This document shows positions 41,376-58,501 of a stretch of 64,000 nucleotides of DNA, one piece after another. Numbering within the stretch: the first letter of the stretch is position 1; each line of letters begins with the position of its first letter. Position numbers and translations under genes: made by a program. The notes under the pieces were generated by a model, which was not told the DNA's origin, made no database searches, and saw only the letters and a program-made list of their open reading frames with translations. Origin of the DNA: Actinoallomurus soli (GTDB lineage Bacteria > Actinomycetota > Actinomycetes > Streptosporangiales > Streptosporangiaceae); contig NZ_JAMXMV010000020.1 of NCBI RefSeq assembly GCF_024055715.1, positions 62,001 to 126,000 of the forward strand, in the 5' to 3' direction.

Positions 41376-41392
41376 CCGGCCCGGCGGGCCGG
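41376..41392 (+). terminator. weak GC hairpin between celR and GH48
   Basis: CCGGCCC-GGC-GGGCCGG forms a seven-bp stem without a T-tract. It may attenuate rather than fully stop read-through from celR into the cellulase gene, which has no CelR box of its own. Confidence 0.4.
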
Positions 41393-41421
41393 TGGTGCTC
41401 CCCGTCAGGAGGAATCCGCCC

Positions 41422-44494: not shown

Positions 44495-46222
44495 TTGTTG
44501 AAACTCAACCCCCGCCGCGGCGTCGCGCTGCGGATGGACCGGGTGGGCGTGGCGATCGCCGCGCTCGTGCTCGGCCTCGTATCCGTGCTGTTCGGCATGG
44601 GACGGGCTCACGCGGCCGCCGGCTGCAAGGTGACCTATTCGGTGAACCAGTGGAGCAACGGCTTCACCGCGAACATCGGGATCACCAACCTCGGCGACTC
44701 GCTCAGCTCCTGGACCCTCGAGTGGGACTTCGCCGGTAACCAGCAGGTCACCCAGGGCTGGAGTGGGACGTTCTCCCAGTCCGGCAAGCACGTCACGGTG
44801 AAGAGCCTGTCCTACAACGGCAGCCTCGCCACCAACGCGTCGACGTCGCTCGGCTTCAACGCCTCCTACTCCGGGACGAACGACGCCCCGACGTCCTTCA
44901 AGGTGAACGGCACCACGTGCAACGGCACCCCCGGCGGGCCGACGGACACCCCGACGCCGACCCCCACCATCACCCCGACGCCGCCTCCGGGTGGCGGATC
45001 GCACGTCGACAACCCGTTCGCGGGCGGCAAGGGCTACGTCAACTCCGAGTGGTCGACCGAGGCCAAGAACGACGGCGGCAGCGCGATCGCCAACCAGCCG
45101 ACCGCCGTGTGGCTGGACCGCATCGCGGCGATCAACGGTGTGAACGGCGGGATGGGCCTGAAGGCCCACCTCGACGCCGCGGTGGCGCAGGGCGCGAGCT
45201 ACGCGCAGTTCGTCATCTACGACCTGCCCGGTCGTGACTGCGCGGCGCTGGCCTCCAACGGCGAGCTCGGCCCGACGGATCTCGGCCGCTACGAGACCGA
45301 GTACATCGACCCGATCGCCTCGATCATGAGCGACTCGAAGTACGCGAACCTCAAGATCATCACGTACATCGAGCCCGACTCGCTGCCGAACCTGGTCACC
45401 AACGTCAGCGGCAACACCGCGACCACCAACTGCCAGACGATGCAGCAGAACGGCAACTACGTGAAGGGCGTCCAGTACGCCCTGAACAAGCTGCACGCGA
45501 TCAGCAACGTCTACACCTACCTCGACGCCGGTCACCACGGCTGGCTCGGCTGGGACAGCAACTTCGGGCCCGCCGCGCAGCTGTTCGCCACGGTCGCCAA
45601 GGGCACCACGGCGGGCGTCAACAGCGTCGACGGTTTCGTCATCAACACCGCCAACTACTCGCCGACCACCGAGCCGTACCTGCCGGTCAACTCCCAGACT
45701 CGCGCGTCGACCTGGGTGGACTGGAACTACTACGTGGACGAGTCGAGCTTCGGCGCGGCCTTCCGCCAGCAGCTGATCTCCGACGGCTTCCCGTCGACCA
45801 TCGGCATGGTGATCGACACCTCCCGCAACGGCTGGGGCGGATCGGCCCGGCCGACCGGCCCGAGCTCGGCGAGCGACATCAACACCCAGGTCAACGCCGA
45901 GCGCGTCGACCGCCGGCCGCACGTCGGCGACTGGTGCAACCAGGCCGGTTCGGGTCTGGGCGCCCGGCCGACCGCCGCTCCGGCCGCCGGTTTCGACGCC
46001 TACGCGTGGGTCAAGCCGCCGGGTGAGTCCGACGGGTCGAGCACCAGCATCCCGAACGACGAGGGCAAGGGCTTCGACCAGATGTGCGACCCGAACTACG
46101 GCGGGAACGTGCGGAACGGCAACAGCCCGACCGGCGCCATGGCGAACGCCCCGCTGTCCGGTCACTGGTTCTCCGCGATGTTCCACCAGCTCCTGCAGAA
46201 CGCCTACCCGCCGGTGCAGTAG
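44495..46222 (+). CDS. secreted cellobiohydrolase, CBM2-GH6
   Basis: The 575-aa protein begins at a TTG (44495) seven bases after AGGAGGA. A signal peptide, CBM2 (~40-145; SVNQWSNGFTANIGITN), a Pro/Thr linker (TDTPTPTPTITPTPPPGGG) and the GH6 catalytic domain follow. Catalytic marks are LPGRDCAALASNGEL with the acid Asp, ITYIEPDSLPNLV, YLDAGHHGWLGW and CNQAGSGLGARP. GH6 exocellulases act from the non-reducing end, so it pairs with the GH48 enzyme for crystalline cellulose. A degenerate CelR-like sequence (GTGGAGCGACTCCC) stands at ~44455. Confidence 0.96.
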   Translation: MLKLNPRRGVALRMDRVGVAIAALVLGLVSVLFGMGRAHAAAGCKVTYSVNQWSNGFTANIGITNLGDSLSSWTLEWDFAGNQQVTQGWSGTFSQSGKHVTVKSLSYNGSLATNASTSLGFNASYSGTNDAPTSFKVNGTTCNGTPGGPTDTPTPTPTITPTPPPGGGSHVDNPFAGGKGYVNSEWSTEAKNDGGSAIANQPTAVWLDRIAAINGVNGGMGLKAHLDAAVAQGASYAQFVIYDLPGRDCAALASNGELGPTDLGRYETEYIDPIASIMSDSKYANLKIITYIEPDSLPNLVTNVSGNTATTNCQTMQQNGNYVKGVQYALNKLHAISNVYTYLDAGHHGWLGWDSNFGPAAQLFATVAKGTTAGVNSVDGFVINTANYSPTTEPYLPVNSQTRASTWVDWNYYVDESSFGAAFRQQLISDGFPSTIGMVIDTSRNGWGGSARPTGPSSASDINTQVNAERVDRRPHVGDWCNQAGSGLGARPTAAPAAGFDAYAWVKPPGESDGSSTSIPNDEGKGFDQMCDPNYGGNVRNGNSPTGAMANAPLSGHWFSAMFHQLLQNAYPPVQ

Positions 46223-46480: not shown

Positions 46481-46530
46481 ACGCCGGGGCCGCCACCGAA
46501 CGGTGTGGGAGCGCCGGGCGGCCCCGGCGT
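46481..46530 (+). repeat. stem-loop element, copy 2
   Basis: Perfect 13-bp arms (ACGCCGGGGCCGC and complement) enclose 24 bases with a nested CACCG-AA-CGGTG hairpin and the shared AACGGTGTGGGAGCGCCG. A pyrimidine-rich stretch follows the stem. Confidence 0.65.
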
Positions 46531-46702
46531 CTCTCCTTCAAGCGGGCGGAAGCCCGCGCGCCGCCGGCCAGGCGCCGTACGCGTCCCCGTCTCGGGGCCC
46601 GGGGGCTAACTTACTATGTAAAGGCCGTGGCGCGAGGTTCACGGGCCTGCTGAGGGTCCCGCCCGTGCCGGTTCACTCCCGGTACTTCCCCCTGATCGGC
46701 AC

Positions 46703-46789
46703 TTGACGTCGACGGTTTCCGGCGTGTTTCATACTCCTCACTCCCGTAAACGTTTACGGGAGTCGCTTCAGTGGTCTGTAAACGTTTAC
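46703..46789 (+). promoter_or_regulatory. promoter and two palindromic LacI operators
   Basis: TTGACG (46703-46708) and TTTCAT (46727-46732) or CATACT (46730-46735) form a likely promoter. Operator 1 is a 24-bp perfect palindrome at 46740-46763 with core CCCGTAAACGTTTACGGG; operator 2 is GTAAACGTTTAC at 46778-46789. Their centres are 32 bases apart, about three helical turns, fitting cooperative binding by the LacI protein encoded directly downstream. Confidence 0.85.
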
Positions 46790-46850
46790 GACGAAGGTAA
46801 CGACTTCCGTGAGTGCTGCTGGCGCTCGTGGGCGAGGCCGGAGGGAAGCC

Positions 46851-47858
46851 GTGGCTCAGGGACCGACGATCACGACGATCGCCGCGCGTGCGGGGGTCTC
46901 GATCGCGTCGGTGTCGCGCGTACTGAACGGGCTGCCGACCCGCGAGGAGACCGTGCGCAAGGTGATGGCCGCGGCCGACGAGCTCGGCTACGTGCCGAAC
47001 GCCGTGGCCCGCTCGCTCAAGTCCAACCGCACCTACCAGGTCGCGTTCGCGATGGCGGACATCGGCAACCCGACGTACGTCGCGATGGTCCGGGAGATCC
47101 AGCCCGTGCTGAAGGCCGCCGGGTACCGCCTGGTCCTGCACTCGACCGACGGCGACGTCGACGACGAGCTGGACGTGCTCCGGCGGCTCGGGGAGCGGTA
47201 CGTCGACGGGCTCATCATCAGCCCGCTGCGCGGCGTCGCGCAGCGGCACCTCGACCTGCTGACCTCCGCGCCCGCGCCCGTCGTCGTGATCGGCTCGGTG
47301 CCCGAGGGCACGCCGGTCGACAACGTACGGGCCGACTCACGCGCCGGCGTGCGGCTGGCCCTGGAGCACCTGCACGGCCTTGGGCGGCGGAGGATCGGCC
47401 TCCTCAACGGCCCGCTCGACACGGTCCCGGGCGCGGCGCGCGCCACCGCCTACACCGACGCGCTCGCCTCGCTCGGCCTGCCGTACGACCCGAACCTGGT
47501 CGAGGTCGGTGACTTCTACCGCGCCGAGGGCGCCCTCGCGGCACGCCGGCTCCTCGAACGGGCCCGGCCGGACGCCCTCCTGTGCGCCAACGACCTGATC
47601 GCCCTCGGCGCGCTCGACGTCCTGAGGGAGGAACGGCTGCGGGTGCCGGAGGACGTCGCGCTCGTCGGCATGGACGACACCGAACTGGCGACCGCGGCCT
47701 GGCCGACGCTCACCAGCGTCGGGCTCGGGTCGGCCGAGCGCGGCCGGCGGGCCGCCGAACTGCTCCTCGACCGGTTGAACGACGGCGCCGCCGCGCCCCG
47801 GATCGTCACGGTCGAGCCCACGCTCGCCGTCCGCGCCTCGACGGAGGGGGCTCCGTGA
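46851..47858 (+). CDS. LacI-family regulator of the ARH/CoA-lyase operon
   Basis: The 335-aa protein has the HTH TITTIAARAGVSIASVSRVL at ~5-24 and a LacI-type sensor domain (VVVIGSVPEGTPVDNV; VALVGMDDTELATAAWP). The start is a GTG at 46851, set by GGAGGGA four bases upstream; an earlier GTG at 46809 lacks one. It is the first gene of the operon; its stop overlaps the permease start (GTGA), so it is made together with the genes it controls. Two palindromes upstream suggest tight autorepression released by an imported sugar-like ligand. Confidence 0.9.
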   Translation: MAQGPTITTIAARAGVSIASVSRVLNGLPTREETVRKVMAAADELGYVPNAVARSLKSNRTYQVAFAMADIGNPTYVAMVREIQPVLKAAGYRLVLHSTDGDVDDELDVLRRLGERYVDGLIISPLRGVAQRHLDLLTSAPAPVVVIGSVPEGTPVDNVRADSRAGVRLALEHLHGLGRRRIGLLNGPLDTVPGAARATAYTDALASLGLPYDPNLVEVGDFYRAEGALAARRLLERARPDALLCANDLIALGALDVLREERLRVPEDVALVGMDDTELATAAWPTLTSVGLGSAERGRRAAELLLDRLNDGAAAPRIVTVEPTLAVRASTEGAP

Positions 47859-48805
47859 GCCACGTGACCGCCGCACCGACCGCGGCCCGCCCGCCACGGG
47901 CCGGGCGCCCGGCCGACCCGAGCCCGAGGCCGCGCGCCCGAGGCGACCGCGGGACGCTGATCCTGCTGCTGCCGGCGCTCGTGCCGGTGCTGCTGTTCAG
48001 CGTCGGGCCGCTGCTGTACGGCATCTACCTGTCGTTCACGGACGCGCGCGGCGGCCGGAACGCCGTCATCTCCTTTGTCGGGCTGAAGAACTTCGGCGAC
48101 GTCCTCGCGGACACCGACTTCTGGTCGTCGTTCAAGATCGGCCTGATCTGGGCGGTCAGCGTCACCGTGCTGCAGTTCCTGGCCGCGCTCGGGCTGGCGC
48201 TGCTGCTGAACCAGAACCTCCGTCTCCGCACGCTCGCCCGGGTGCTGGCGATGGCGCCGTGGGCGATGCCGCCCATCGTGATCGGGCTGATGTGGCGGCT
48301 GGTCTACCACCCCAACGCCGGCGTCCTCAACGCCGTCCTGCAGGACGTGCACCTGCTCGACCACAACGTCGACTGGCTCAACGACTTCGGCACCGCACTC
48401 CCGGCGATCATCGTCGTCGGCGTCTGGACCGGGATGCCGCAGACCACCGTGGTGCTGCTCGCCGGGCTGCAGGGCGTGCCGAAGGAGCTGCACGAGGCGG
48501 CCGCCGTCGACGGCGCGAGCGTCTGGCGCCGCTTCTGGAACGTGACACTGCCGCAGCTGCGGCCGGTGATCGTCACGATCACCGCGCTGGACTTCGTGTG
48601 GAACATCAACCAGTTCGCGATGGTCTACGCGCTGACCCAGGGCGGTCCCGGCGGCCGTACCCGCCTGCCGATGCTCTTCGCCTACGAGGAGGCGTTCCGC
48701 TACGGGTTCTTCGGGTACGCGGCGGCGCTCGGCGTCGCGATCACCATCGTCGTCCTCGTGGTCCTCGGCTTCTACCTCTGGCGTCAGATGAAGGAGAGCC
48801 GGTGA
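47855..48805 (+). CDS. ABC transporter permease (CUT1, MalF-like)
   Basis: The 316-aa protein has a basic, Pro-rich N-terminus, then about six membrane helices. The EAA loop is PKELHEAAAVDGASVWRRF. The GTG start at 47855 overlaps the LacI stop; GGAGGGGG lies just upstream. Together with the next permease and the lipoprotein it forms an importer. The ATPase is not encoded here and may be a shared MsiK-type subunit. Confidence 0.92.
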   Translation: MSHVTAAPTAARPPRAGRPADPSPRPRARGDRGTLILLLPALVPVLLFSVGPLLYGIYLSFTDARGGRNAVISFVGLKNFGDVLADTDFWSSFKIGLIWAVSVTVLQFLAALGLALLLNQNLRLRTLARVLAMAPWAMPPIVIGLMWRLVYHPNAGVLNAVLQDVHLLDHNVDWLNDFGTALPAIIVVGVWTGMPQTTVVLLAGLQGVPKELHEAAAVDGASVWRRFWNVTLPQLRPVIVTITALDFVWNINQFAMVYALTQGGPGGRTRLPMLFAYEEAFRYGFFGYAAALGVAITIVVLVVLGFYLWRQMKESR

Positions 48806-49620
48806 AAACCACGCTGAAGTACGCCGGGCTGCTCGGCTACCTCGTCTTCCTGGTCTTTCCGCTGCTGTGGCTGCTGTCGACGGCGTTCAAGACGCCGCGC
48901 GAGATGGCGACCCTGCATCCGCGCTGGATCCCGCACCACCCGACGCTGCGCAACTTCAGCGACGCCTTCGCCGCGCAGGACCTGACCGGCAGCGCCCTCC
49001 GCAGCCTGATCGTCGCGGTCTCCGTGGCGGTGCTCACCGTCGCGATCGCGCTCCCGGCGGCGTACGCGCTGGCGCGGCGGCGATCGGTGCTGAACCGGAT
49101 CGCGATCGGCTGGGTGCTGGTCAGCCAGGTCTTTCCGGTCGTGCTGATCATCATCCCGCTCTTCATCATCCTGCGCCGGCTCGACCTGGTGAACACGCTG
49201 CCGGGGCTGGTCCTCGTGCACGTCACCTTCGTCCTGCCGTTCGCACTGTGGATGCTGCAGGGGTACGTCCGCGGCGTGCCCCGCGAACTGGAGGAGGCCG
49301 CCGCCGTCGACGGCGCCGGGCGGATCAGGACCCTGGTCAACGTCGTCGCGCCGCTGCTCGCCCCCGGGGTCGTCGCCGCCCTGCTGTTCTCCTTCATCTC
49401 CTCCTGGAACGAGTTCTTCTTCGCCCTGGTGATCCTCAAGGACCCGGACAAGGCGACCCTGCCGCTGACGCTGGTGAAGTTCACCGGCGCGGAGCAGGCC
49501 GCCCGGCTCGGCCCGCTGGCCGCCGCGTCCCTGCTGGCCACCGTCCCCAGTCTCGTCTTCTTCGCCATCATCCAACGCCGGCTCCGCTCGGGCCTCACCG
49601 CCGGCGCCGTCAAGGGTTAG
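48802..49620 (+). CDS. ABC transporter permease (CUT1, MalG-like)
   Basis: The 272-aa protein has six predicted helices and the EAA loop PRELEEAAAVDGAGRIRTLV. The GTG start at 48802 overlaps the previous stop (GTGA), with GGAGAG just upstream. It is the second permease of the importer; transport specificity cannot be read from the sequence. Confidence 0.92.
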   Translation: MKTTLKYAGLLGYLVFLVFPLLWLLSTAFKTPREMATLHPRWIPHHPTLRNFSDAFAAQDLTGSALRSLIVAVSVAVLTVAIALPAAYALARRRSVLNRIAIGWVLVSQVFPVVLIIIPLFIILRRLDLVNTLPGLVLVHVTFVLPFALWMLQGYVRGVPRELEEAAAVDGAGRIRTLVNVVAPLLAPGVVAALLFSFISSWNEFFFALVILKDPDKATLPLTLVKFTGAEQAARLGPLAAASLLATVPSLVFFAIIQRRLRSGLTAGAVKG

Positions 49621-49633
49621 TAGGAGGTACCCC

Positions 49634-50932
49634 ATGCGTCGCGGTCTTCGCTCCGCGCTCGCGGTCGCCGCCGCCACCGTGCTCGGCCTGACCGCCGGGT
49701 GTTCCGGGGGCGGCAACGACTCCGGCAAGCCGGTCACACTGAAATTCCTGAGCCTGGCCTGGCAGAAGGACTCCCTGGCCGCCAACAAGCGGCTCGTCAC
49801 GGAGTGGAACAAGGCCAATCCGAAGATCCAGGTCCAGTACGTCCAGGGCAGCTGGGACAACGTCAACGACCAGCTGGTGACCTCCTTCGAGGGCGGCGAC
49901 CCGCCGGACGTCATCCACGACGACTCCTCCGCCCTCGCGGGCTTCGCCGGGCAGGGCTACCTCGCCGACCTGACCAAGCTGATTCCGACCGGGCTCAAGA
50001 ACGACATCCCGGACGCCGCCTGGGGCACCGCGACGTTCGACGGGCAGGGCGGGCAGGGGATCTACGGGGTGCCGTTCCTGCAGGAGTCGCAGGTCATCCT
50101 CGCCAACAAGAAGATGCTGGACGCCGCAAAGGTGCGCATTCCCACGTCCGGCGACCCCTGGACCTGGGACGAGTTCCAGCAGATCAGCAAGAAGCTCACC
50201 GTCGGCAAGCGGTACGGCATCGCGTGGCCGCTCAAGTCGCCGGTGAACAAGGTGCTCAACCTCTCGCTGAACTTCGGCGGCACCTTCTTCCAGACCTCCG
50301 GCGGCAAGACGACGGTCAAGGTCGGCCCGCAGGAGAAGGAGGTCCTGCAGCGGATCCACGACCAGCTCTACAAGGACAAGACCGCCGACCCCTCGACGCT
50401 CGGCATGGGCACCACCGACCCGCTGCCCGGGTTCTACGCCGGCAGGTACGCGATGGTGCCCGCCGGGATCTACCTGCGGCAACAGGTCGTCGAGCAGGCG
50501 CCGAGCGGCTTCCAGTGGGTGACGATCCCGCCGCTGAAGGGCCAGACGACCCAGCAGGGCGCGATCTCACAGACGCTCTCGGTCGCGGCCGACAGCAAGC
50601 ACCCGAAGGAGGCGATGCAGTTCATCTCCTGGTTCCTGAACGGGCAGCACCAGGTGGACCTCGCCAAGGGCGACTGGCTGATCCCGACGAGCAAGACGGC
50701 GGCCCAGGACCCGACGCTGACCACGGACAAGTACGGCTGGAACGTCGCGACCGCCTCGGCCAAGAGCCTGATCCTGGCGCCGTACCTCAAGGTCAACGGC
50801 TTCGACGAGTTCAAGAGCAAGGTGGCGACGCCGGTCCTGCAGTCCTACTTCGCCAACAAGATCACGATTGACCAGCTGGCGCAGAAGCTGACCCAGGACG
50901 GCGACAAGGTCCTGGAGCGCTACAACAAGTGA
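49634..50932 (+). CDS. solute-binding lipoprotein of the ARH-operon importer
   Basis: The 432-aa protein has a lipoprotein signal ending LGLTAGC with Cys23. The mature part is a family 1 extracellular binding protein (VTLKFLSLAWQKDSLAANKR; TSFEGGDPPDVIHDDSS; YGVPFLQESQVILANKKML). It captures the ligand outside the membrane for the two permeases encoded upstream. TAGGAGGT precedes the ATG. Its stop overlaps the start of the first ADP-ribosylglycohydrolase-like gene (GTGA), tying uptake to hydrolysis. Confidence 0.92.
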   Translation: MRRGLRSALAVAAATVLGLTAGCSGGGNDSGKPVTLKFLSLAWQKDSLAANKRLVTEWNKANPKIQVQYVQGSWDNVNDQLVTSFEGGDPPDVIHDDSSALAGFAGQGYLADLTKLIPTGLKNDIPDAAWGTATFDGQGGQGIYGVPFLQESQVILANKKMLDAAKVRIPTSGDPWTWDEFQQISKKLTVGKRYGIAWPLKSPVNKVLNLSLNFGGTFFQTSGGKTTVKVGPQEKEVLQRIHDQLYKDKTADPSTLGMGTTDPLPGFYAGRYAMVPAGIYLRQQVVEQAPSGFQWVTIPPLKGQTTQQGAISQTLSVAADSKHPKEAMQFISWFLNGQHQVDLAKGDWLIPTSKTAAQDPTLTTDKYGWNVATASAKSLILAPYLKVNGFDEFKSKVATPVLQSYFANKITIDQLAQKLTQDGDKVLERYNK

Positions 50933-51918
50933 GCGAGTTCCGCGACCGCGCCCGTGGGTGCCTGCTCGGCCTGGCGGCCGGCGACGCCCTCGGGCGGCCC
51001 GCCGAGAACCTCACGCCCGAGGAGATCACCCGGCGCTGGGGCCGCCTCACCGAGCTGGAGCCCGGCCCGGACGGCGGCCCGGCGGGCACCGACGACACCG
51101 AGTACGCGATCTTCGCGGCGTCCCTGCTGACGGCGCACGGGTCGGCGCTCACGACCGAGGACGTCGTCGCCGCCTACCGGGAGCAGGTCCTGCCGATCGA
51201 CGGGCCGATGAAGGGCGCGGGCTTCTCCGAGTTGGGAACGGTCCAAGCCCTGCGGCGGGGACTGACCCCGCCGCTGACCGGGCGCCGGCACGACCACGGC
51301 TGGTCCGACGGCCTGGCGATGCGCGCCGCACCGTACGGGGTGTTCGCGGCAGGTGACCCGGACGAGGCGGCACGGCTCGTGACCGTCGACGGCGCGGTCA
51401 GCCACAGCGGCGAGGGGATCCTCGGCGGACGTGCCGTCGCGGCGGCGGTCGCCGCCGCCATGACCGGCGCGCCGCCCGCCGGCGTCGTGGCCGCCGGACT
51501 GGGCGCGGTCCCGGAGGACTCCTGGACCGCCCGCAGCGTCCGCGCCGCCGTGCGGATCACCGCGGGCCGGGACCGGGATCGCCTTGCGGCGGACCTGCAC
51601 GAGGCCGTCGTCGCGCGGCACTACCCCTGGACCGACCTGGCCCCGGAGGCGGTGGCGCTGGCGTTCGCCGCGTACCTGACCGGCGGTGGCGACGTCGAGG
51701 AGTCCGCGGTCACGGCGGTGAGCCTGGGCCGCGACGCCGACACCACCGCCGCCATCGCCGGGGCGCTCGCGGGCGCAGGCCGTGGTGAGGGCGGCGTTCC
51801 GGAGCGCTGGGCGCGGGCGATCGGCCCGGTGCGGGGGGCCTGCCTGCCCGCCGTGGCGGGCAGGGACGTCCGCGAGGTCGCCGACGCGCTCGCACGGGCG
51901 CGCAAGACGCACGGCTGA
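50929..51918 (+). CDS. ADP-ribosylglycohydrolase-fold protein, copy 1
   Basis: The 329-aa protein has the DraG/ARH fold marks: GCLLGLAAGDALGRPAE at the N-terminus, first metal site GTDDTEY (~45-51), and second metal site LGRDADTTAAIAGALAG near residue 270. All Mg/Mn ligands seem intact. DraG-type enzymes hydrolyse N-glycosidic bonds of ADP-ribose; many environmental homologues lie in sugar operons and probably cut other glycosides. GTG start overlaps the binding-protein stop. It is the first of four different members encoded in a row. Confidence 0.9.
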   Translation: MSEFRDRARGCLLGLAAGDALGRPAENLTPEEITRRWGRLTELEPGPDGGPAGTDDTEYAIFAASLLTAHGSALTTEDVVAAYREQVLPIDGPMKGAGFSELGTVQALRRGLTPPLTGRRHDHGWSDGLAMRAAPYGVFAAGDPDEAARLVTVDGAVSHSGEGILGGRAVAAAVAAAMTGAPPAGVVAAGLGAVPEDSWTARSVRAAVRITAGRDRDRLAADLHEAVVARHYPWTDLAPEAVALAFAAYLTGGGDVEESAVTAVSLGRDADTTAAIAGALAGAGRGEGGVPERWARAIGPVRGACLPAVAGRDVREVADALARARKTHG

Positions 51919-51934
51919 ACGAGCGAGGAGACAG

Positions 51935-52966
51935 ATGGCATCGGGGGATCCGCGCGACCGGGTGCGCGGCGCGTTCGCCGGGCTGGCGATCGGCGACGCG
52001 GCCGGCTGGCCGGCCGCGCGGCACAGGTGGGGCCTGCTCGCCCCGTGGACCCGCCGGCTCGGCCGGGAACTCGACGGCTTCGCCGAGGAGCACCGGGTGA
52101 CGACGCTGCCGGTGCCGTTCGCGCTGAACCAGCCGGTCGCCGCCCTCGCGGTCGGCCCGTCCGACGACGCCGAGTGGCTGGCCTGGACCGCGCGCACGCT
52201 GGGCACCGACCGCCGCGGGGCGTTCGAGGCACTGGGCGACGACGTACGGGCCCGGATCTCGGTGCGCACCGCGCTGGACAACCTGGCGCGCGGCGTCGAT
52301 CCGCCCGCGAGCGGTCACGACAACCCGCACTTCTTCGACGACGCCGCGGCCGTGCGGGCGGTCGCGTTCGGGGCCGCTCATCCGGGCGCGCCGGAGGACG
52401 CGTCCCGGGCCGCGCGCGCCGACGCGGTGATCACCAACGCCGAGGACGGCGTGCACGCGGCCGGGGCGATGGCCGCCGCGACCGCCGTCGCGGTGGCGGG
52501 CGCTCCGGCGGGTGACGCCGTCGCCGCCGCCCTGGCGGAACTGCCTCCGGGCACCGCGATCCACGGGGCGGCGACGGACGCGCTCGACCTGCCCGGCGAC
52601 GCGTTCGCCCTCGTCCCGAGCCTGGACGCGGCCCTCCAGGACCACGTGTACAGCTACGGCGTCGCGGCGGCGCGGACGGTGCCGGTGGCGCTCGCCCTCA
52701 CCCGCGCGTCCGACGGCGACCTGGCCAGGGCCGTCCCGGCCGCCGCCTGCCTGGCGTCGCTGGCCGACTCGGCGCCCGCGCTCACCGGCGCGCTGACCGG
52801 TGCGATCACCGGATGGGCGGCCCTGCCGGAGACCTGGCGGGAACGCGCCCGCCACCTCGCCGGCTGCTGCCTGCCGGAGCTCGCCGGCGCCGACCTCGTC
52901 GCCATCGCCGATCGACTCAGCGGTCCCGGACCGTCCGGGACCGCGCACCAGGAAGGAACGGGATGA
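51935..52966 (+). CDS. ADP-ribosylglycohydrolase-fold protein, copy 2 (degenerate metal site)
   Basis: The 343-aa protein opens with GAFAGLAIGDAAGWPAA and has SDDAEW in place of T-D-D-T. At the C-terminal site the aligned segment reads ASLADSAPALTGALTGA: one Asp is kept, but the first Asp of D-x-D is replaced by Leu. Metal binding is therefore probably weakened, and the protein may be a binding or regulatory partner, or act on a different substrate. GAGGAG precedes the ATG. Its stop overlaps the next start (ATGA). Confidence 0.85.
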   Translation: MASGDPRDRVRGAFAGLAIGDAAGWPAARHRWGLLAPWTRRLGRELDGFAEEHRVTTLPVPFALNQPVAALAVGPSDDAEWLAWTARTLGTDRRGAFEALGDDVRARISVRTALDNLARGVDPPASGHDNPHFFDDAAAVRAVAFGAAHPGAPEDASRAARADAVITNAEDGVHAAGAMAAATAVAVAGAPAGDAVAAALAELPPGTAIHGAATDALDLPGDAFALVPSLDAALQDHVYSYGVAAARTVPVALALTRASDGDLARAVPAAACLASLADSAPALTGALTGAITGWAALPETWRERARHLAGCCLPELAGADLVAIADRLSGPGPSGTAHQEGTG

Positions 52967-54096
52967 CTCCGTTGCAGGACAAGGCCGTCGGCGCGCTCGT
53001 GGGCGCGGCGGTCGGGGACGCGCTCGGCGGGGCGACGGAGGGCTGGACCCCCGAGCAGATCCGGGAACGCTACGACGGCCCCGTCACCGGCATCGTCCCG
53101 CCGTACTTCGCCGATTGGCGGAACGCGCGCCCGATCGCGCCGTATCACAAGGGCGACGGGCACGTCACCGACGACACCCTCATGACGCACGCCCTGGTCC
53201 GGGTGTACGAGCGGGTGGGCGGCCACCTGGACGCGTACGCCGCCGCCGAGCACCTCGTGCCGGAGATGATGGGGGAGAAGCGCTGGATCCCCGAGCTGGA
53301 GGCGGAGGCGCTGCCGCTGCAGCGGGTGTTCCTCGCCGAGAAGTGGCTCGTGCTCCGGCTGCACTACGGCCACGTCGACCCGCGTGAGGCGGGCGTGGGC
53401 AACATCGTCAACTGCGGCGCGGCGATGTACATGGCGCCGGTCGGCGTCGTCAACGCCGCCGATCCCGACGGCGCGTACGCCGAGGCGATCGACCTCGCCG
53501 GGGCCCACCAGTCCAGCTACGGCCGGGAGGCCGCGGGCGTGTTCGCCGCGGCCGTGGCCGAGGCGATGCGGCCGGGCGCCACGCCGGACTCGGTCGTCTC
53601 GGCGGCCGTGCGGCTCGCCAAGGACGGCACCAGGGCGGCGATCGAGGCGGTCTGCGAGCGGGCCCGCGGCCACGCGCGCTGGGAGGGCTCCTTCGACGCC
53701 CTGCGCGACGCGATGCGGCCGTACGACACCGTCGCCGACACCTACCGCGATCAGGGCCTGGGCGCGCGACGCCCCAGCCGCGTCCACAGCATCGAGGAAC
53801 TGCCGCTCGCGCTGGCATTCCTGCTCATCGCGGGCGGCGGCTACCGCGAGACCGTGCTCGGCGCGATCAACTACGGCCGCGACGCCGACTCGATCGCCAG
53901 CATGGGCGGTGCGATCGCCGGGGCGCTGGGCGGGAAGGCGGCCGTGCCCGCCGACTGGCGTGAGGACGTCGCGGTCGCCAGCCGCCTGGACCTGGAGGCG
54001 CCCGGTCTGGCGATCGCGGCGGTGGCCGAGCGCGTGCACGCCGCCGACGTGGCCCGGCGGCGCGCGCACGAGCAGGCGTTCGCGGAGCTGCTGTGA
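52963..54096 (+). CDS. ADP-ribosylglycohydrolase-fold protein, copy 3
   Basis: The 377-aa protein has the intact signature: GALVGAAVGDALGGATEGW, HVTDDTLMTHAL (~65-76) and NYGRDADSIASMGGAIAG near residue 303. An extra central segment (GEKRWIPELEAEALPLQRVF) distinguishes it from copy 1. The spacing resembles the larger ADP-ribosylglycohydrolases found in carbohydrate operons. Start ATG overlaps the stop of copy 2, with GGAAGGA upstream. Likely a metal-dependent glycoside or N-glycoside hydrolase. Confidence 0.9.
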   Translation: MTPLQDKAVGALVGAAVGDALGGATEGWTPEQIRERYDGPVTGIVPPYFADWRNARPIAPYHKGDGHVTDDTLMTHALVRVYERVGGHLDAYAAAEHLVPEMMGEKRWIPELEAEALPLQRVFLAEKWLVLRLHYGHVDPREAGVGNIVNCGAAMYMAPVGVVNAADPDGAYAEAIDLAGAHQSSYGREAAGVFAAAVAEAMRPGATPDSVVSAAVRLAKDGTRAAIEAVCERARGHARWEGSFDALRDAMRPYDTVADTYRDQGLGARRPSRVHSIEELPLALAFLLIAGGGYRETVLGAINYGRDADSIASMGGAIAGALGGKAAVPADWREDVAVASRLDLEAPGLAIAAVAERVHAADVARRRAHEQAFAELL

Positions 54097-55436
54097 TGCG
54101 GCTGACCTGGATCCAGCCCGAGGACCTGATCGGGCACGAGCTCCGCCAGGCCGCGCAGGACGGCCGCGACGTCGCCGACGTCGCCACGCGCTGGCACGCC
54201 GCCGGCGGACACGACGCGCCGCCGCGCGCGGGGGCCTCGCCGGAGCCGGCGTCGCCGCAGCTGCGGACGCTGGCCGAGCAGCTGCTCGACGAGCTCGCGG
54301 CGATGCCGTCACCGTACGACGAGCCGACCGAGCTCGACGAGATCATCGCCGCCTGCCCTGACTGGCCGGCGGGCGGGCCCCGCCCCGTGGCCTTCGACCG
54401 GCTGCACGGCGCGTGGCTCGGCCGGGCCGCCGGGTGCGTCCTCGGCAAGCCCGTGGAGAAGATCCCCCGTGCTGGCATCCGGGAGATCGCCGAGGCGACC
54501 GGCAACTGGCCGATCCGCGGCTGGTTCACCGCCGAGGGTCTTCCCGCCGAGATCGCTGAACGCTGGCCGTGGAACCGGCGCAGCGCGGCGACCAGCCTCG
54601 CCGAGAACCTCGACGGCACTCCCGAGGACGACGACCTCAACTTCCCGATGCTCGCCCTGGCGATCCTGGAGCGGTACGGGCGGGACTTCACGACCGACGA
54701 CGTCGCGCAGGCATGGCTGGACGAGCTGCCGGGCGGCCGGGTGTTCACCGCCGAGCGGGTCGCGTACCGCAACCTGCTGCTCGGCGTCGAGCCGCCGCGC
54801 ACGGCGACGTACCGCAACCCGTTCCGCGAGTGGATCGGCGCGCAGATCCGCGCCGACGTGTACGGCTGGGTCAACCCCGGCGATCCGGCCGCAGCCGCGT
54901 CGATGGCGCACCGGGACGCCCGGCTCAGCCACACGGCCAACGGCGTCTACGGCGCGATGTTCGCCGCGGCGATGTGCGCCGCCGCCCTGACCGCCCGCAC
55001 GGTGGACGAGATCGTCGAGGCGGGGCTGGCGGTGGTGCCGCCGGAGTCCCGCCTGGCACGGGCCGTACGCCGGGCCGTCGCGTCGGCCCGCGCGGAGACC
55101 GACGTCGAACGGGTCATCGACGGGCTGTACGAACGCCACGGCGACCTGCACTGGGTCCACTCCGTCAACAACGCCGCGCTCGTCGCCGCCGCCCTGGTCC
55201 ACGGCGCCGGCGACTTCACCCGGTCGATCGCGGCCGCGGTGGCGGGCGGCTGGGACACCGACTCCGACGGCGCGACGGTCGGATCGGTCGCCGGAGCCCT
55301 GCTGGGCGCCGGTCGCCTGCCCGAGCGGTGGACCCGGCCGCTGCGCGACCGCGTCGCCAGCAGCCTGACCGGATTCGACGGCGTGCGCCTCACCGACCTG
55401 GCCGCCCGGACCGCCGCCCTCGCGGAGCGGCGATGA
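54093..55436 (+). CDS. ADP-ribosylglycohydrolase-fold protein, copy 4 (large variant)
   Basis: The 447-aa protein has an extra ~100-residue N-terminus (MMRLTWIQPEDLIGHELRQA). The fold then begins LHGAWLGRAAGCVLGKPVEK, where the usual G-D-A is G-C-V. Site 1 is TPEDDDLNF and site 2 GGWDTDSDGATVGSVAG, the form common to long family members. Start GTG 54093 overlaps the previous stop; an ATG one codon later is equally possible. It is probably catalytic with a substrate range different from copies 1 and 3. Confidence 0.88.
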   Translation: MMRLTWIQPEDLIGHELRQAAQDGRDVADVATRWHAAGGHDAPPRAGASPEPASPQLRTLAEQLLDELAAMPSPYDEPTELDEIIAACPDWPAGGPRPVAFDRLHGAWLGRAAGCVLGKPVEKIPRAGIREIAEATGNWPIRGWFTAEGLPAEIAERWPWNRRSAATSLAENLDGTPEDDDLNFPMLALAILERYGRDFTTDDVAQAWLDELPGGRVFTAERVAYRNLLLGVEPPRTATYRNPFREWIGAQIRADVYGWVNPGDPAAAASMAHRDARLSHTANGVYGAMFAAAMCAAALTARTVDEIVEAGLAVVPPESRLARAVRRAVASARAETDVERVIDGLYERHGDLHWVHSVNNAALVAAALVHGAGDFTRSIAAAVAGGWDTDSDGATVGSVAGALLGAGRLPERWTRPLRDRVASSLTGFDGVRLTDLAARTAALAERR

Positions 55437-56644
55437 CAGAACGAGAGGGGCCGGCGATGACCCGCCCGCTGGACGGCGTCCGCGTCCTGGACCTGGCGAC
55501 GCTGTTCGCCGGGCCGATGGCCGCGATGTTCCTCGGCGACTTCGGCGCCGAGGTCGTCAAGGTCGAGCATCCCCGCCGGCCCGACCCCGCGCGCGGGCAC
55601 GGGGCGGCCAAGGACGGCATCGGCCTGTGGTGGAAGATGCTCGGCCGGAACAAGCAGACGATCACCCTGAACCTGTCGGAGCCCGAGGGACAGGACGTCC
55701 TGCTCCGCCTGGCCCGCGACGCCGACGTCATCATCGAGAACTTCCGCCCCGGCACCCTCGAACGCTGGAACCTGTCCTACGAGCGGCTCCAGGAGGCCAA
55801 CCCCGGCCTCGTGCTCGCCCGGGTCACCGGCTTCGGGCAGTTCGGCCCGTACGCGCGGCGCCCCGGGTTCGGCACGCTCGCCGAGGCGATGAGCGGGTTC
55901 GCGGCGATGACCGGGGAACCGGACGGGCCGCCGACGCTGCCGCCGTTCGGGCTCGCCGATGGCATCGCCGCGCTCGCCACGGCGTACGCGGTGATGACGG
56001 CGCTGCGGGCCCGCGACCTGACGGGCCGGGGGCAGGTCGTCGACCTGTCGATCCTCGAGCCGATCCTCACCGTGCTCGGCGGCCAGCCGACCGCGTACGA
56101 CCAGCTCGGGCTCGTTCCGCCGCGTACCGGGAACCGCTCGGTCAACAATGCGCCGCGCAACACCTACCGCTGCGCGGACGGCTCCTGGGTGGCGGTCTCC
56201 ACCTCGGCGCAGAACATCGCCGAGCGGGTGATGCGCCTGGTCGGACGGCCGGAGTACGTCGACGAGCCATGGTTCGCGACGGGCGCCGGCCGGGCCGCGC
56301 ACGCCGACGAGCTTGACGCGGCGGTCGCCGCGTGGGTGGGCGAGCGCACCCGGGAGCAGGTGCTCGCCGAGTTCGAGAAGGCCGAGGCGGCGGTCGCGCC
56401 GATCTACGACGTGCGCGACCTCATGGCCGATCCGCAACTCGCCGCGCTGGATGCGATCACGACCGTCGACGACCCGGACTTCGGGCCGCTGCGCATGCAG
56501 AACGTCCTGTTCCGGCTGTCGGCGACGCCCGGCACGCTGCGCTGGACCGGGCGCGCGCACGGTGCCGACACCGACCGCGTCCTCGGTGCGGCCGGCCTGA
56601 CCGCCGACGAGATCGACGCGCTCCGCGCCCGCGGGGTGATCTGA
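55433..56644 (+). CDS. class III (CaiB/BaiF) CoA-transferase
   Basis: The 403-aa protein (395 aa if the ATG at 55457 is used) begins GVRVLDLATLFAGPMAAMFL. FGAEVVKVEHP follows, and the catalytic Asp is ~176 (FGLADGIAAL). It moves CoA from a donor such as succinyl-CoA or acetyl-CoA to a carboxylic acid. ATGA overlap with copy 4 puts it in the same operon. With the CoA lyase downstream it probably activates a hydroxy acid set free by the hydrolases. Confidence 0.92.
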   Translation: MTEREGPAMTRPLDGVRVLDLATLFAGPMAAMFLGDFGAEVVKVEHPRRPDPARGHGAAKDGIGLWWKMLGRNKQTITLNLSEPEGQDVLLRLARDADVIIENFRPGTLERWNLSYERLQEANPGLVLARVTGFGQFGPYARRPGFGTLAEAMSGFAAMTGEPDGPPTLPPFGLADGIAALATAYAVMTALRARDLTGRGQVVDLSILEPILTVLGGQPTAYDQLGLVPPRTGNRSVNNAPRNTYRCADGSWVAVSTSAQNIAERVMRLVGRPEYVDEPWFATGAGRAAHADELDAAVAAWVGERTREQVLAEFEKAEAAVAPIYDVRDLMADPQLAALDAITTVDDPDFGPLRMQNVLFRLSATPGTLRWTGRAHGADTDRVLGAAGLTADEIDALRARGVI

Positions 56645-56705
56645 GCGTGCCGGCGTGCCTCCCGTCCCCGGCGGACGTGCCGGGCGCCCGTGAGGGGATC
56701 CGCGA

Positions 56706-57530
56706 ATGACGACGCTGCTGTACGTCCCCGCCGACCGGCCCGACCGCGTGGCCAAGGCGCTCGCCACCGACGCGGACGTGGTGATCCTCGACCTGGAGGA
56801 CGCCGTGGCCCCGGCGCACAAGGACCGGGCACGAGAGCACGTCGCCGCCGTGCTGGCGGAGCCGACGCGCCCGGTCCAGGTCCGAGTCAACGACGTGCGA
56901 TCCGGCTGGGGCCGCGCCGACCTGGCGGCCCTGGCCGGACTGCTCCCCGCGACGGACGGCGTCCGCCTGCCGAAGATCGAGTCCGTGGACCGGGTACGGC
57001 GGATCGCGGATCTCGTCCCGGGCGCCGGCCTGCACCTGCTCCTGGAGTCCGCGCTGGGCGTCGAGCGGGCGCACGACCTGGCGACCGCCCACCCGGCGGT
57101 GGCCTCCATCGGGCTCGGCGAGGCCGACCTCAAGGCGGACCTCGGCGTGGCCGATGAGACCGGGCTGGCCTGGGCGCGGTCACGGATCGTCGTGGCGGCG
57201 CGGGCCGCCGGTCTGCCCGCTCCGGTCCAGTCGGTCCATCCCGACATCCGCGACCTGGACGGGCTGGCCGCGTCCTGCCGGCTCGGCCGCGCCCTCGGAT
57301 TCCGGGGGCGGGCGGCGATCCACCCCGCCCAGCTGCCGGTGATCGCCGAGGTGTACCGGCCGACCGCCGAGGAGGTCGCCGCCGCCCGCCGGATCGTCGC
57401 GGCCTACGAGGAGGGGGACGCGACGGGGACCGGGGCCGTGGCCCTCCCCGACGGTGGTTTCGTCGATCTCGCCGTCGTCCGCCAGGCGCGGAACGTCCTC
57501 ACGGAGGTCTCCGGCGAGCGGCCCGCCTGA
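56706..57530 (+). CDS. CitE-like (HpcH/HpaI family) acyl-CoA lyase
   Basis: The 274-aa TIM-barrel protein starts TTLLYVPADRPDRVAKAL. VVILDLEDAVAPAHK, the metal ligand Glu114 (LHLLLESALG) and Asp141 (SIGLGEADLKADLG) are those of malyl-, citramalyl- or hydroxyacyl-CoA lyases. It would split a 3-hydroxyacyl-CoA to acetyl-CoA (or an analogue) and a keto acid such as glyoxylate or pyruvate. It is 61 bases after the CoA-transferase and is the last gene of the operon. No hydratase is encoded, so the substrate is presumably already hydroxylated. Confidence 0.9.
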   Translation: MTTLLYVPADRPDRVAKALATDADVVILDLEDAVAPAHKDRAREHVAAVLAEPTRPVQVRVNDVRSGWGRADLAALAGLLPATDGVRLPKIESVDRVRRIADLVPGAGLHLLLESALGVERAHDLATAHPAVASIGLGEADLKADLGVADETGLAWARSRIVVAARAAGLPAPVQSVHPDIRDLDGLAASCRLGRALGFRGRAAIHPAQLPVIAEVYRPTAEEVAAARRIVAAYEEGDATGTGAVALPDGGFVDLAVVRQARNVLTEVSGERPA

Positions 57531-57545
57531 CCGGACCTCGGCGGC

Positions 57546-58361
57546 TCAGGGCTTGCGGGCGACGCCGCCGAGGGTCGCGACCTCCCTGGGCGGGCCGAAC
57601 GGGTCCGGTTCGGGGCGCCACCGCTGAATCGGCACGATGCCCGGCTCGACCGGCTCCAGGCCCGCGAAGAAACCGGTGATCTGTTCCGGCGTCCGCAGGT
57701 GGTAGGGGATCGCACCGCTGTCCTTGTAGCGTCGGCTCGCCTCCCGGTGGGCCGCTCCGACGTCGACGCTGTCGGCGAGCGCGAGGAAGCTGCCGGAGGG
57801 GAGCGCCTCCATCAGCCGCCGGACGATCGACCGGGCCTCCGTGTAGTCCTCGAGGTGGCCCAGCACGCCCATGAAGATCAACGCGACGGGGCGGGTCAGG
57901 TCGAGCGTGTCGGCCGCCGCCTGGGCGATCTTCTCGGGCTCGCGCATGTCGGCGTCGATGTAGTCGGTCCTGCCCTCGGCGGAGCTCGTCAGGAGCGCGC
58001 GGGCGTGCGCGAGGACCAGCGGCTCGTTGTCGACGTAGACGATCCGGCAGCCGGGCGCGACGCGCTGCGCCACCTCATGGGTGTTGTCGACCGTCGGCAG
58101 GCCGGTGCCCACGTCGAGGAACTGCCGGATGCCCTCCTCGCCGGCCAGGTGCCGTACGGCGCGGGCGAGGAAATGGCGGGCGGCGCGGGCGGTGTCGACG
58201 ATGCCGGGGAAGATCTCCCGGTACTGGTCGCCGGCCGCGCGGTCGACCGGATAGTTGTCCTTGCCGCCCAGCCAGTAGTTCCAGACGCGGGCGGAGTGGG
58301 GGACGCTCGTGTCGATCTCCGGCGTCGGCGCCGGTTCGGGGCTGGTGGACCTGTCGTTCAC
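57546..58361 (-). CDS. SAM-dependent methyltransferase, DUF574 type
   Basis: The 271-aa protein belongs to the large actinobacterial DUF574 (Methyltransf_19) group: SARVWNYWLGGKDNYPVDR, QFLDVGTGLPTVDNTHEVAQ, RIVYVDNEPLVLAHARALL, and FMGVLGHLEDYTEA. Actinomycetes carry many copies; substrates are mostly unknown. The start is a GTG at 58361 preceded by GAGGGAG. It is convergent with the lyase gene, 15 bases apart. Confidence 0.9.
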   Translation of the reverse strand: MNDRSTSPEPAPTPEIDTSVPHSARVWNYWLGGKDNYPVDRAAGDQYREIFPGIVDTARAARHFLARAVRHLAGEEGIRQFLDVGTGLPTVDNTHEVAQRVAPGCRIVYVDNEPLVLAHARALLTSSAEGRTDYIDADMREPEKIAQAAADTLDLTRPVALIFMGVLGHLEDYTEARSIVRRLMEALPSGSFLALADSVDVGAAHREASRRYKDSGAIPYHLRTPEQITGFFAGLEPVEPGIVPIQRWRPEPDPFGPPREVATLGGVARKP

Positions 58362-58445
58362 GGGTCTCCCTCGCTGCCGTCCGATGGGCGTGATCCCCAT
58401 CCTGCCGGTTCCTCCGGTTCGCCGCGATGTCGGCCCCTTGAGTGC

Positions 58446-58501
58446 TTGACGGCCGCCGCCGATCGGACCACTATGAACGCATGTTCATGAACGTGTGTTC
58501 A
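58446..58501 (+). promoter_or_regulatory. promoter with two abutting TGAAC-N4-GTTCA operators
   Basis: TTGACG (58446-58451) and CACTAT (58469-58474) are 17 bases apart. Two 14-bp palindromes, TGAACGCATGTTCA (58474-58487) and TGAACGTGTGTTCA (58488-58501), lie end to end immediately downstream; the junction also forms GTTCATGAAC. This is a typical TetR-type operator array, likely used by the TetR protein at 59433. Confidence 0.75.

Follow-up and report, generated by a model that had tools for sequence, protein, structure and literature searches.

A candidate catabolic operon of Actinoallomurus soli joining a sugar importer, ADP-ribosylglycohydrolase-fold proteins and coenzyme A enzymes

The window analysed here is a stretch of 64,000 nucleotides from Actinoallomurus soli (contig NZ_JAMXMV010000020.1, positions 62,001 to 126,000). 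Positions 46851-57530 of the window hold an operon of ten genes, all on the plus strand, in which a LacI-family regulator and an ATP-binding cassette (ABC) importer precede four proteins of the ADP-ribosylglycohydrolase (ARH) fold, here called D1 to D4, a coenzyme A (CoA) transferase of the CaiB type and a CitE-like CoA-ester lyase, Table 1. The operon is more than a chance grouping, as the gene order is kept in relatives of several families.

Gene content and motifs of the operon

All ten proteins score above the Pfam gathering cut-offs for their stated families. Read from the DNA, GTGA or ATGA overlaps are found at six junctions (LacI/permease A, permease A/permease B, binding protein/D1, D2/D3, D3/D4 and D4/CaiB), and the gaps are 13 bases between permease B and the binding protein, 16 between D1 and D2 and 61 between CaiB and CitE. 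An earlier note, made from the letters of this DNA, had described the same ten genes, order, strand, overlaps and 61-base gap before the lyase, and the DNA bears all of this out. A promoter and terminator consensus scan of positions 46500-58500 gave nothing above chance and, between CaiB and CitE, no site, with a consensus that does not cover all actinomycete promoters.

Table 1. Features of the operon, with positions counted from the first base of the window.
Feature	Position	Strand	Remarks
Operator-like palindrome 1, GTAAACGTTTAC	46746..46757	.	Exact match
Operator-like palindrome 2, GTAAACGTTTAC	46778..46789	.	32 bases from palindrome 1
LacI-family regulator	46851..47858	+	Pfam LacI, Peripla_BP_3; open reading frame start possible at 46809
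ABC permease A	47855..48805	+	Pfam BPD_transp_1; GTGA overlap with LacI
ABC permease B	48802..49620	+	Pfam BPD_transp_1
Solute-binding lipoprotein (predicted)	49634..50932	+	Pfam SBP_bac_1
D1, ARH-fold, both metal motifs (TDDT, GRDADT)	50929..51918	+	PF03747, 196.8 bits
D2, diverged ARH-fold, C-terminal GRDxDT changed to xxADS	51935..52966	+	PF03747, 100.1 bits
D3, ARH-fold, both metal motifs	52963..54096	+	PF03747, 171.8 bits
D4, ARH-fold, N-terminal extension of ~100 residues, EDDD and WDTDS	54093..55436	+	PF03747, 177.5 bits, residues 106-412
Class III CoA-transferase (CaiB/BaiF type)	55433..56644	+	CoA_transf_3, 407.2 bits
CitE-like CoA-ester lyase	56706..57530	+	HpcH_HpaI, 113.4 bits

The first four genes have what is expected of a LacI-regulated sugar ABC operon, i.e. 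a LacI protein, a solute-binding protein, two permeases and a palindromic putative operator. The relatives of the binding lipoprotein in the PDB sequence search are mostly named sugar-binding, for instance 6rjy; these are general sugar-binding proteins and the search pointed to no ligand.

Two copies of the palindrome stand ahead of the LacI gene, a count that none of 100 shuffles of the window matched, and the 9.42-Mb assembly (60 contigs) has no further exact copy. Two copies were found at the operon in 12 out of 12 D3-positive genomes searched, while the two D3-negative genomes searched have one copy (G045) and none (G050). To count relatives with enough upstream DNA, 67 LacI loci (51 with the palindrome) were collapsed to 59 distinct ones; 44 of these have an exact palindrome at most 300 bases upstream of LacI, and 25 have two. 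Because the palindromes stand ahead of the LacI gene, are confined to that place in their own genome and recur in relatives, LacI looks like a local regulator of its own operon. Against the NCBIfam models, RbsR appears among the matches of LacI, all far under the cut-off, and nothing is drawn from them. One extra palindrome each in G009 and G100, adjoining other genes, and the copy in G045 were not taken as a regulon. The G045 copy precedes a different LacI gene (L203 8434-9480, 34% identity), which has an ATPase gene and a permease gene alongside, both ribose-type by eye.

All four D proteins clear the PF03747 cut-off of 26.2 bits. We take the N-terminal TDD(T) and the C-terminal DxD(S/T) to be the metal motifs of the ARH family. 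They were counted in L035-L059, L080-L088 and L105-L184, duplicates included, using pieces of at least 50% identity. TDDTEY is found in 106 copies of D1 and GRDADT in 104, TDDTLM or TDDTLL in 114 copies of D3 and GRDxDS in 114, and (E/A)DDDLx and GxDTDS in 109 copies each of D4. For D2, the N-terminal motif is SDDAE or GDDAE in 107 copies, and the C-terminal motif has become xxADS, with the opening Asp of GRDxD(S/T) gone in 99 out of 99 copies (ten commonest forms); these motifs come from the count, as one alignment misplaced the N-terminus of D2. Because the first Asp is lost while the rest of the motif is conserved, we read D2 as a probable partner or altered enzyme under selection. The TDDTE motif is still present in a D2-like protein (39%) of genome G046. 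The four DraG-like hydrolases of the earlier note are therefore four matches to PF03747, but with D2 diverged they are better described as three ARHs with both motifs and one paralogue.

The AlphaFold2 model of D3 has a mean predicted local distance difference test (pLDDT) score of 80.7, with low confidence for residues 49-64 and most of 105-150. It is an all-helical ARH fold, and the best PDB match is 1t5j (MJ1187; E-value 4.5e-7, TM-score 0.74 by target and 0.61 by query). The DraG equivalog TIGR02662, with a cut-off of 337.05 bits, is not reached by D1 (66.1), D3 (44.6) or D4 (31.2), and D2 is not listed.

D3 and D4 occur without D1 and D2 in locus L054, in Herbiconiux (L172) and in the rhizobial plasmids opened. 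D1-D2-like genes without D3 or D4 nearby are found in G046, divergent from a set of LacI, binding protein and permeases (L202 15223-17242, reverse orientation). As each pair is found without the other, the distribution suggests that D1-D2 and D3-D4 may be two cooperating pairs.

Conservation in actinomycetes and rhizobia

Within the GTDB family of the query, 26 of 120 genomes (its own included) have D3, as a single copy each (E-value 1e-20). The flanks of the 25 non-query D3 loci, some on contigs that end early, contain LacI, both permeases, the binding protein and D4 in 25 out of 25 (D4 partial in L059), and D1 and D2 in 24 (L054 is without). CaiB is there in 15 and CitE in 14, and in 16 a gene of ribokinase type follows D4. 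Close CaiB orthologues (identity of at least 79%) are present in 17 out of 120 genomes, i.e. in 16 of the 26 D3-positive and one of the 94 D3-negative ones (Fisher p 2.6e-12, with the 79% cut chosen after seeing the list and relatedness uncorrected). In G071 the CaiB orthologue is encoded on a different contig, at its edge, and the operon CaiB of G089, at 71% identity, falls under the cut.

A wider sample, L105-L184, consists of the best 80 of at least 585 confirmed D3 matches in GTDB contigs, all with actinomycete titles. The 64 loci with enough flank were counted and 16 short-flank loci left out; eight of the 25 loci above (L035-L059) share D3 DNA with one of the 80, and the two sets are not summed. 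Among the 64 loci, D4 is present in 63, D1 and D2 in 62 each, a ribokinase-type gene behind D4 in 48, CaiB in 46, CitE in 45, and LacI with the ABC genes in 37. The kinase count excludes one of 49 loci with a kinase, L141, where a kinase (43%) is found upstream of LacI only. The commonest make-ups are ABC genes, D1-D4 and ribokinase (16 loci) and D1-D4, ribokinase, CaiB and CitE (16). All of these together are seen in 14 (L141, with its kinase upstream, among them), and D1-D4 with CaiB and CitE in nine. The earlier note had named loss of the link between the hydrolases and the two CoA enzymes in neighbourhood searches as evidence against its reading; in most of the 64 loci the hydrolases do stay with the transferase and the lyase. 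Its picture of a single catabolic operon under a common regulator region is supported as well, and the ARH block is conserved beside CaiB and CitE in relatives.

Of 396 genomes sampled over the whole phylum, ten have D3, the query and nine of one genus; at least one other sampled genome of that genus, G290, is without it. In these nine, D1-D2-D3-D4, a ribokinase gene (in six), CaiB and CitE stand between a VIT1-like gene and lgt-dsbA-trpB with no ABC genes (flank names by eye). LacI and the ABC genes are retained at the VIT1-lgt site in three Streptomyces loci (L157, L175 and L179), and Allokutzneria L136 keeps every gene of the operon and the ribokinase gene as well. We infer that the ABC genes were probably lost in most Streptomyces, the ribokinase gene in the clade of the window and CaiB-CitE in Nonomuraea. 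A lone D3 (68%) is found in Allokutzneria sp. A3M-2-11 (L171 9989-11134), with the other queried operon genes not nearby.

By synteny, the Streptomyces version beside lgt-trp would correspond to SCO2028-SCO2033 of Streptomyces coelicolor, as D1-D4, CaiB and CitE stand directly before lgt, dsbA and trp in other Streptomyces. According to the accessible text of PMC5036795, trpX is SCO2038, so the consecutive tags would fit D1-D4, CaiB, CitE, lgt, dsbA, trpA, trpB and trpX; from gene order, SCO2032 and SCO2033 would be CaiB and CitE. In the available parts of the two papers that name them, SCO2028-SCO2031, matched to D1-D4 here by gene order alone, are treated solely as putative ADP-ribosyl hydrolases: SCO2028-SCO2030 are listed as such (PMC5087735), and SCO2028-SCO2031 are four consecutive uncharacterised DraG/ARH homologues (PMC9411070). 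The earlier note knew of no described pathway with this gene set. The PMC literature agrees, with no paper found that pairs an ADP-ribosylglycohydrolase with a CoA ester lyase, or with a CoA transferase and the LacI family; yet the four S. coelicolor homologues at the syntenic place had already been named.

Ten plasmid regions were opened, two of them unannotated. Five are D3 hits, from among 22 records that match D3, and all five are rhizobial operons, from outside the actinomycetes. LacI, the permeases, the binding protein, D3 and UgpC are present in five out of five, and a D4-like gene in four (Pseudochrobactrum is without). These operons (LacI-ABC-ARH-ARH-UgpC) are like the operon of the window in gene order, with D3 41-46% identical. 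They differ in having no D1-D2, in LacI and permeases that are 25-36% identical to those of the window, and in a second ARH (L097, L098, L099, L101) with ~400 extra C-terminal residues, for which no Pfam match was found in the two scanned. The operon of Agrobacterium tumefaciens HAMBI 105 ends in a ribokinase gene, and that of Ensifer sp. PDNC004 in a CoA transferase (46% identical to the window CaiB) and a CoA ester lyase (32% to the window CitE). With identity this low, the Ensifer pair may be a separate recruitment; if it is, the functional link gains in strength. In Mycolicibacterium arabiense a D4-like gene (42%), LacI, ABC genes and a ribokinase gene stand together. A distant D4-like gene (L093 9294-10586) lies behind a binding protein and two permeases, with an alpha-galactosidase-like and two dehydrogenase-like genes near, by eye.

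Enzymes for the sugar and the acid

The ribokinase-type gene of the relatives suggests that a pentose may be released. Of the two kinases tested, L037 obtains 314.1 bits with the ribokinase equivalog TIGR02152, above its cut-off of 299.65, and the cut-off of PRK11142 (341) is reached by neither L037 nor L099. In five loci (L050, L054, L143, L159 and L172) a fusion protein of ~655-690 residues is encoded between D4 and CaiB, where it replaces or adjoins the ribokinase. Its N-terminal part has no family and its C-terminal part is FGE-sulfatase (Pfam run on L054); the predicted structure has a pLDDT of 40.5, and the PDB sequence matches (E-value at most 0.001) are restricted to the FGE part. Among the Nonomuraea genes downstream of the ribokinase, no acid-handling gene was seen in clusters read by eye, with many antisense frames and no Pfam scan. 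Elsewhere in the genome of the window (contig C1, 141746-145145), another ARH gene (L002) lies ~1.6 kb from a same-strand PfkB-type kinase match, like yegU-yegV of Escherichia coli.

In the CaiB-type transferase, the Asp of FGLAD aligns with the Asp of 10uh, 4ed9 and 9br7, presumably the catalytic residue of class III CoA-transferases. Seven residues of CitE (D29, E31, D32, R60, E114, D141 and D254) are invariant in 17 aligned sequences, and by our residue matching E114 and D141 would be the Glu and Asp ligands of Mg, R60 the Arg and D254 the lid Asp. The conserved residues of CitE-like enzymes given in the available text of PMC3832036 are all present in the window lyase, as are the Mg- and substrate-binding residues of Rv2498c (PMC6689899, available text). 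According to the same text, Rv2498c prefers (R)-3-hydroxy-3-methylglutaryl-CoA (HMG-CoA) and (S)-citramalyl-CoA over malyl-CoA. Its methyl-contact residue Met133 corresponds to position 136 here, which is Gly in eight of the 17 sequences (the window among them), Ala in eight and Ser in one; its Val181 corresponds to Val177. This predicted pocket position does not settle the identity of the acid.

Two features are common to the operon and the known itaconate and citramalate module (Rip system; Rv2498c), namely activation by CoA and a CitE-like lyase whose catalytic residues are the same. The operon differs in that the genes of the window include no hydratase, that the window CitE obtains 178.1 bits with the RipC itaconate lyase model NF038242, under the cut-off of 375 bits, and that residue 136 is Gly, Ala or Ser against Met133. 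The earlier note took the missing hydratase as agreeing with an already hydroxylated acid. None is found among the ten genes of the window; for relatives, the flanks were clustered and read by eye, and no scan was aimed at a hydratase. The malyl or citramalyl glycoside named there as an example is a guess from family resemblance, and it is not upheld by the RipC score or by position 136. Bacillithiol-type (glucosaminyl-malate), methanopterin and HMG-glycoside substrates, also considered as candidates, were dropped for want of evidence.

Second, related CaiB-CitE pairs occur elsewhere in relatives (CaiB 64-72%, CitE 48-58% identical). Eight D3-positive genomes with no close CaiB orthologue (G003, G007, G043, G056, G064, G069, G080 and G100) all have such a pair, and in three of them (G003, G007 and G056) the contig ends soon after D4. 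In G084, CaiB and a 46% identical CitE lie ~4.7 kb apart on opposite strands. Near the related pairs a GntR-like gene is found in eight of 13 clustered loci and a DctM-like gene in five of them, with Pfam matches to GntR/FCD and DctM in L189. An RraA-like gene lies near as well, by Pfam in L194. From the GntR-like and DctM-like genes, as expected for an acid-degrading module, the CaiB-CitE family seems to serve small organic acids imported by other routes. The related pair is present in loci L185-L195 and L200, from Nonomuraea-like bacteria and further genera, accompanied in many cases by a DctM-like transporter and a divergently oriented GntR-like regulator.

Proposed function and competing explanations

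We propose, at a little short of an even chance, that LacI controls a catabolic operon here which serves a single kind of imported glycosidic conjugate, of ribosyl type and with a beta-hydroxy acid. Import of the conjugate would fall to the binding protein, the permeases and a shared ATPase, and LacI would leave its two putative operators when the conjugate or a product is present. The pairs D1-D2 and D3-D4 would hydrolyse the glycosidic bond by the two-Mg mechanism of ARHs, with D2 as a non-catalytic or altered partner of D1. The freed pentose, most likely ribose, would be phosphorylated by a ribokinase, encoded behind D4 in most relatives and elsewhere in the genome of the window. The freed beta-hydroxy acid would be charged by the CaiB-type CoA-transferase, and the CitE-like lyase would split the CoA ester, yielding a 2-oxo acid together with an acyl-CoA that is probably acetyl-CoA. 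What remains of the overall reading in the earlier note is one conserved operon with a link between ARHs and acid enzymes; its chemical claim is narrowed to a beta-hydroxy acid conjugate of ribosyl or pentosyl type. The broader proposal is possible, if doubtful: that this ARH branch of actinomycetes and rhizobia consists of metal-dependent glycosidases acting on an undescribed ribosyl or pentosyl beta-hydroxy acid conjugate and feeding a ribokinase and a hydratase-free CaiB-CitE path.

Several observations weigh against a conjugate-degrading operon. There is no ribokinase inside the operon in the clade of the window (G000, L035, L105), where the best kinase elsewhere in the own genome, on contig C9, is 50% identical, and the Agrobacterium kinase (L099) obtains 279.4 bits, under the TIGR02152 cut-off. 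Most of the copies in Streptomyces stand without a LacI or ABC gene next to them. The exact palindrome is missing in 15 of the 59 distinct LacI-bearing relatives, namely L036 (Streptosporangium, via its duplicate L106), L054, L136 (Allokutzneria), L143, L159 and ten Streptomyces-group loci. Neither a ribokinase nor CoA enzymes adjoin the rhizobial operons of Phyllobacterium, Nitratireductor and Pseudochrobactrum, three of the five opened. No substrate or activity is on record for any operon member, and every experimentally known ARH activity is, to our knowledge, on ADP-ribosyl compounds. In addition, CaiB and CitE are missing from 16 of the 64 loci, which keep the ABC genes, D1-D4 and the ribokinase gene (15 Nonomuraea and one Streptomyces); therefore the acid arm is not essential.

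This last point also favours two independent modules under one promoter, with an ARH operon for glycosides and CaiB-CitE acting on an organic acid of no relation to them, joined by chance and then inherited. The related pairs with other neighbours agree with it, as does G031, the sole D3-negative genome with a close CaiB, which keeps ribokinase, CaiB and CitE without D genes. We consider such an origin quite unlikely, since the association turns up in several actinomycete families and in varied surroundings, and one rhizobial operon has a diverged pair of its own.

Unlikely, too, is a salvage route for modified nucleosides, ADP-sugars or derivatives of ADP-ribose, with the ARHs cutting an N-riboside or a nucleotide sugar, the ribokinase taking the ribose and the acid arm a carboxylated base fragment, although the recurrence of a ribokinase beside these ARHs would suit it. 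The E. coli operon yegTUV-W (ggaR) is suspected of a similar role; like the operon of the window it groups a transporter and an ARH under one regulator, with a PfkB sugar kinase as well. It differs in having one ARH, a nucleoside-symporter-type transporter, a GntR regulator and no CoA enzymes. The importer of the window is of the oligosaccharide type (SBP_bac_1, with PDB relatives named sugar-binding) and not a nucleoside symporter. CitE-like lyases require a beta-hydroxyacyl-CoA, and we know of no nucleobase path that supplies one. In the accessible text of PMC10819704, GgaR is reported to respond to ADP-glucose, which supports salvage.

ARH-family proteins are usually assumed to strip ADP-ribose from other molecules, and D1-D4 could do the same to proteins or small molecules, with the operon context incidental. 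The Pfam family of D1-D4, the fold of the D3 model and the listing of the S. coelicolor copies (PMC5087735, PMC9411070, available parts) speak for this. We nevertheless regard it as very improbable, given that a sugar ABC importer, a LacI regulator, a ribokinase and CoA enzymes are conserved alongside. According to the available text of PMC13036486, SCO2028 and SCO2030 are inactive on U-alpha-ADPr, a further point against it and in favour of our proposal; a single inactive substrate leaves room for other ADP-ribosyl substrates, and this limit weighs against our proposal.

If the operon does degrade a ribosyl-type conjugate, an ARH-fold group found in many actinomycetes would have a metabolic role, and a so far unknown soil or plant conjugate would be implied. 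Of the eight DraG homologues on the S. coelicolor list, four would then serve carbon catabolism and not ADP-ribosylation signalling, and counts of ARH homologues would be poor evidence of such signalling. The proposal can be tested in S. coelicolor with the syntenic SCO2028-SCO2033. Directly upstream of the operon, the window contains two large secreted-looking open reading frames (41392-44343 and 44495-46222), cellulase-like with cellulose-binding domains by eye.

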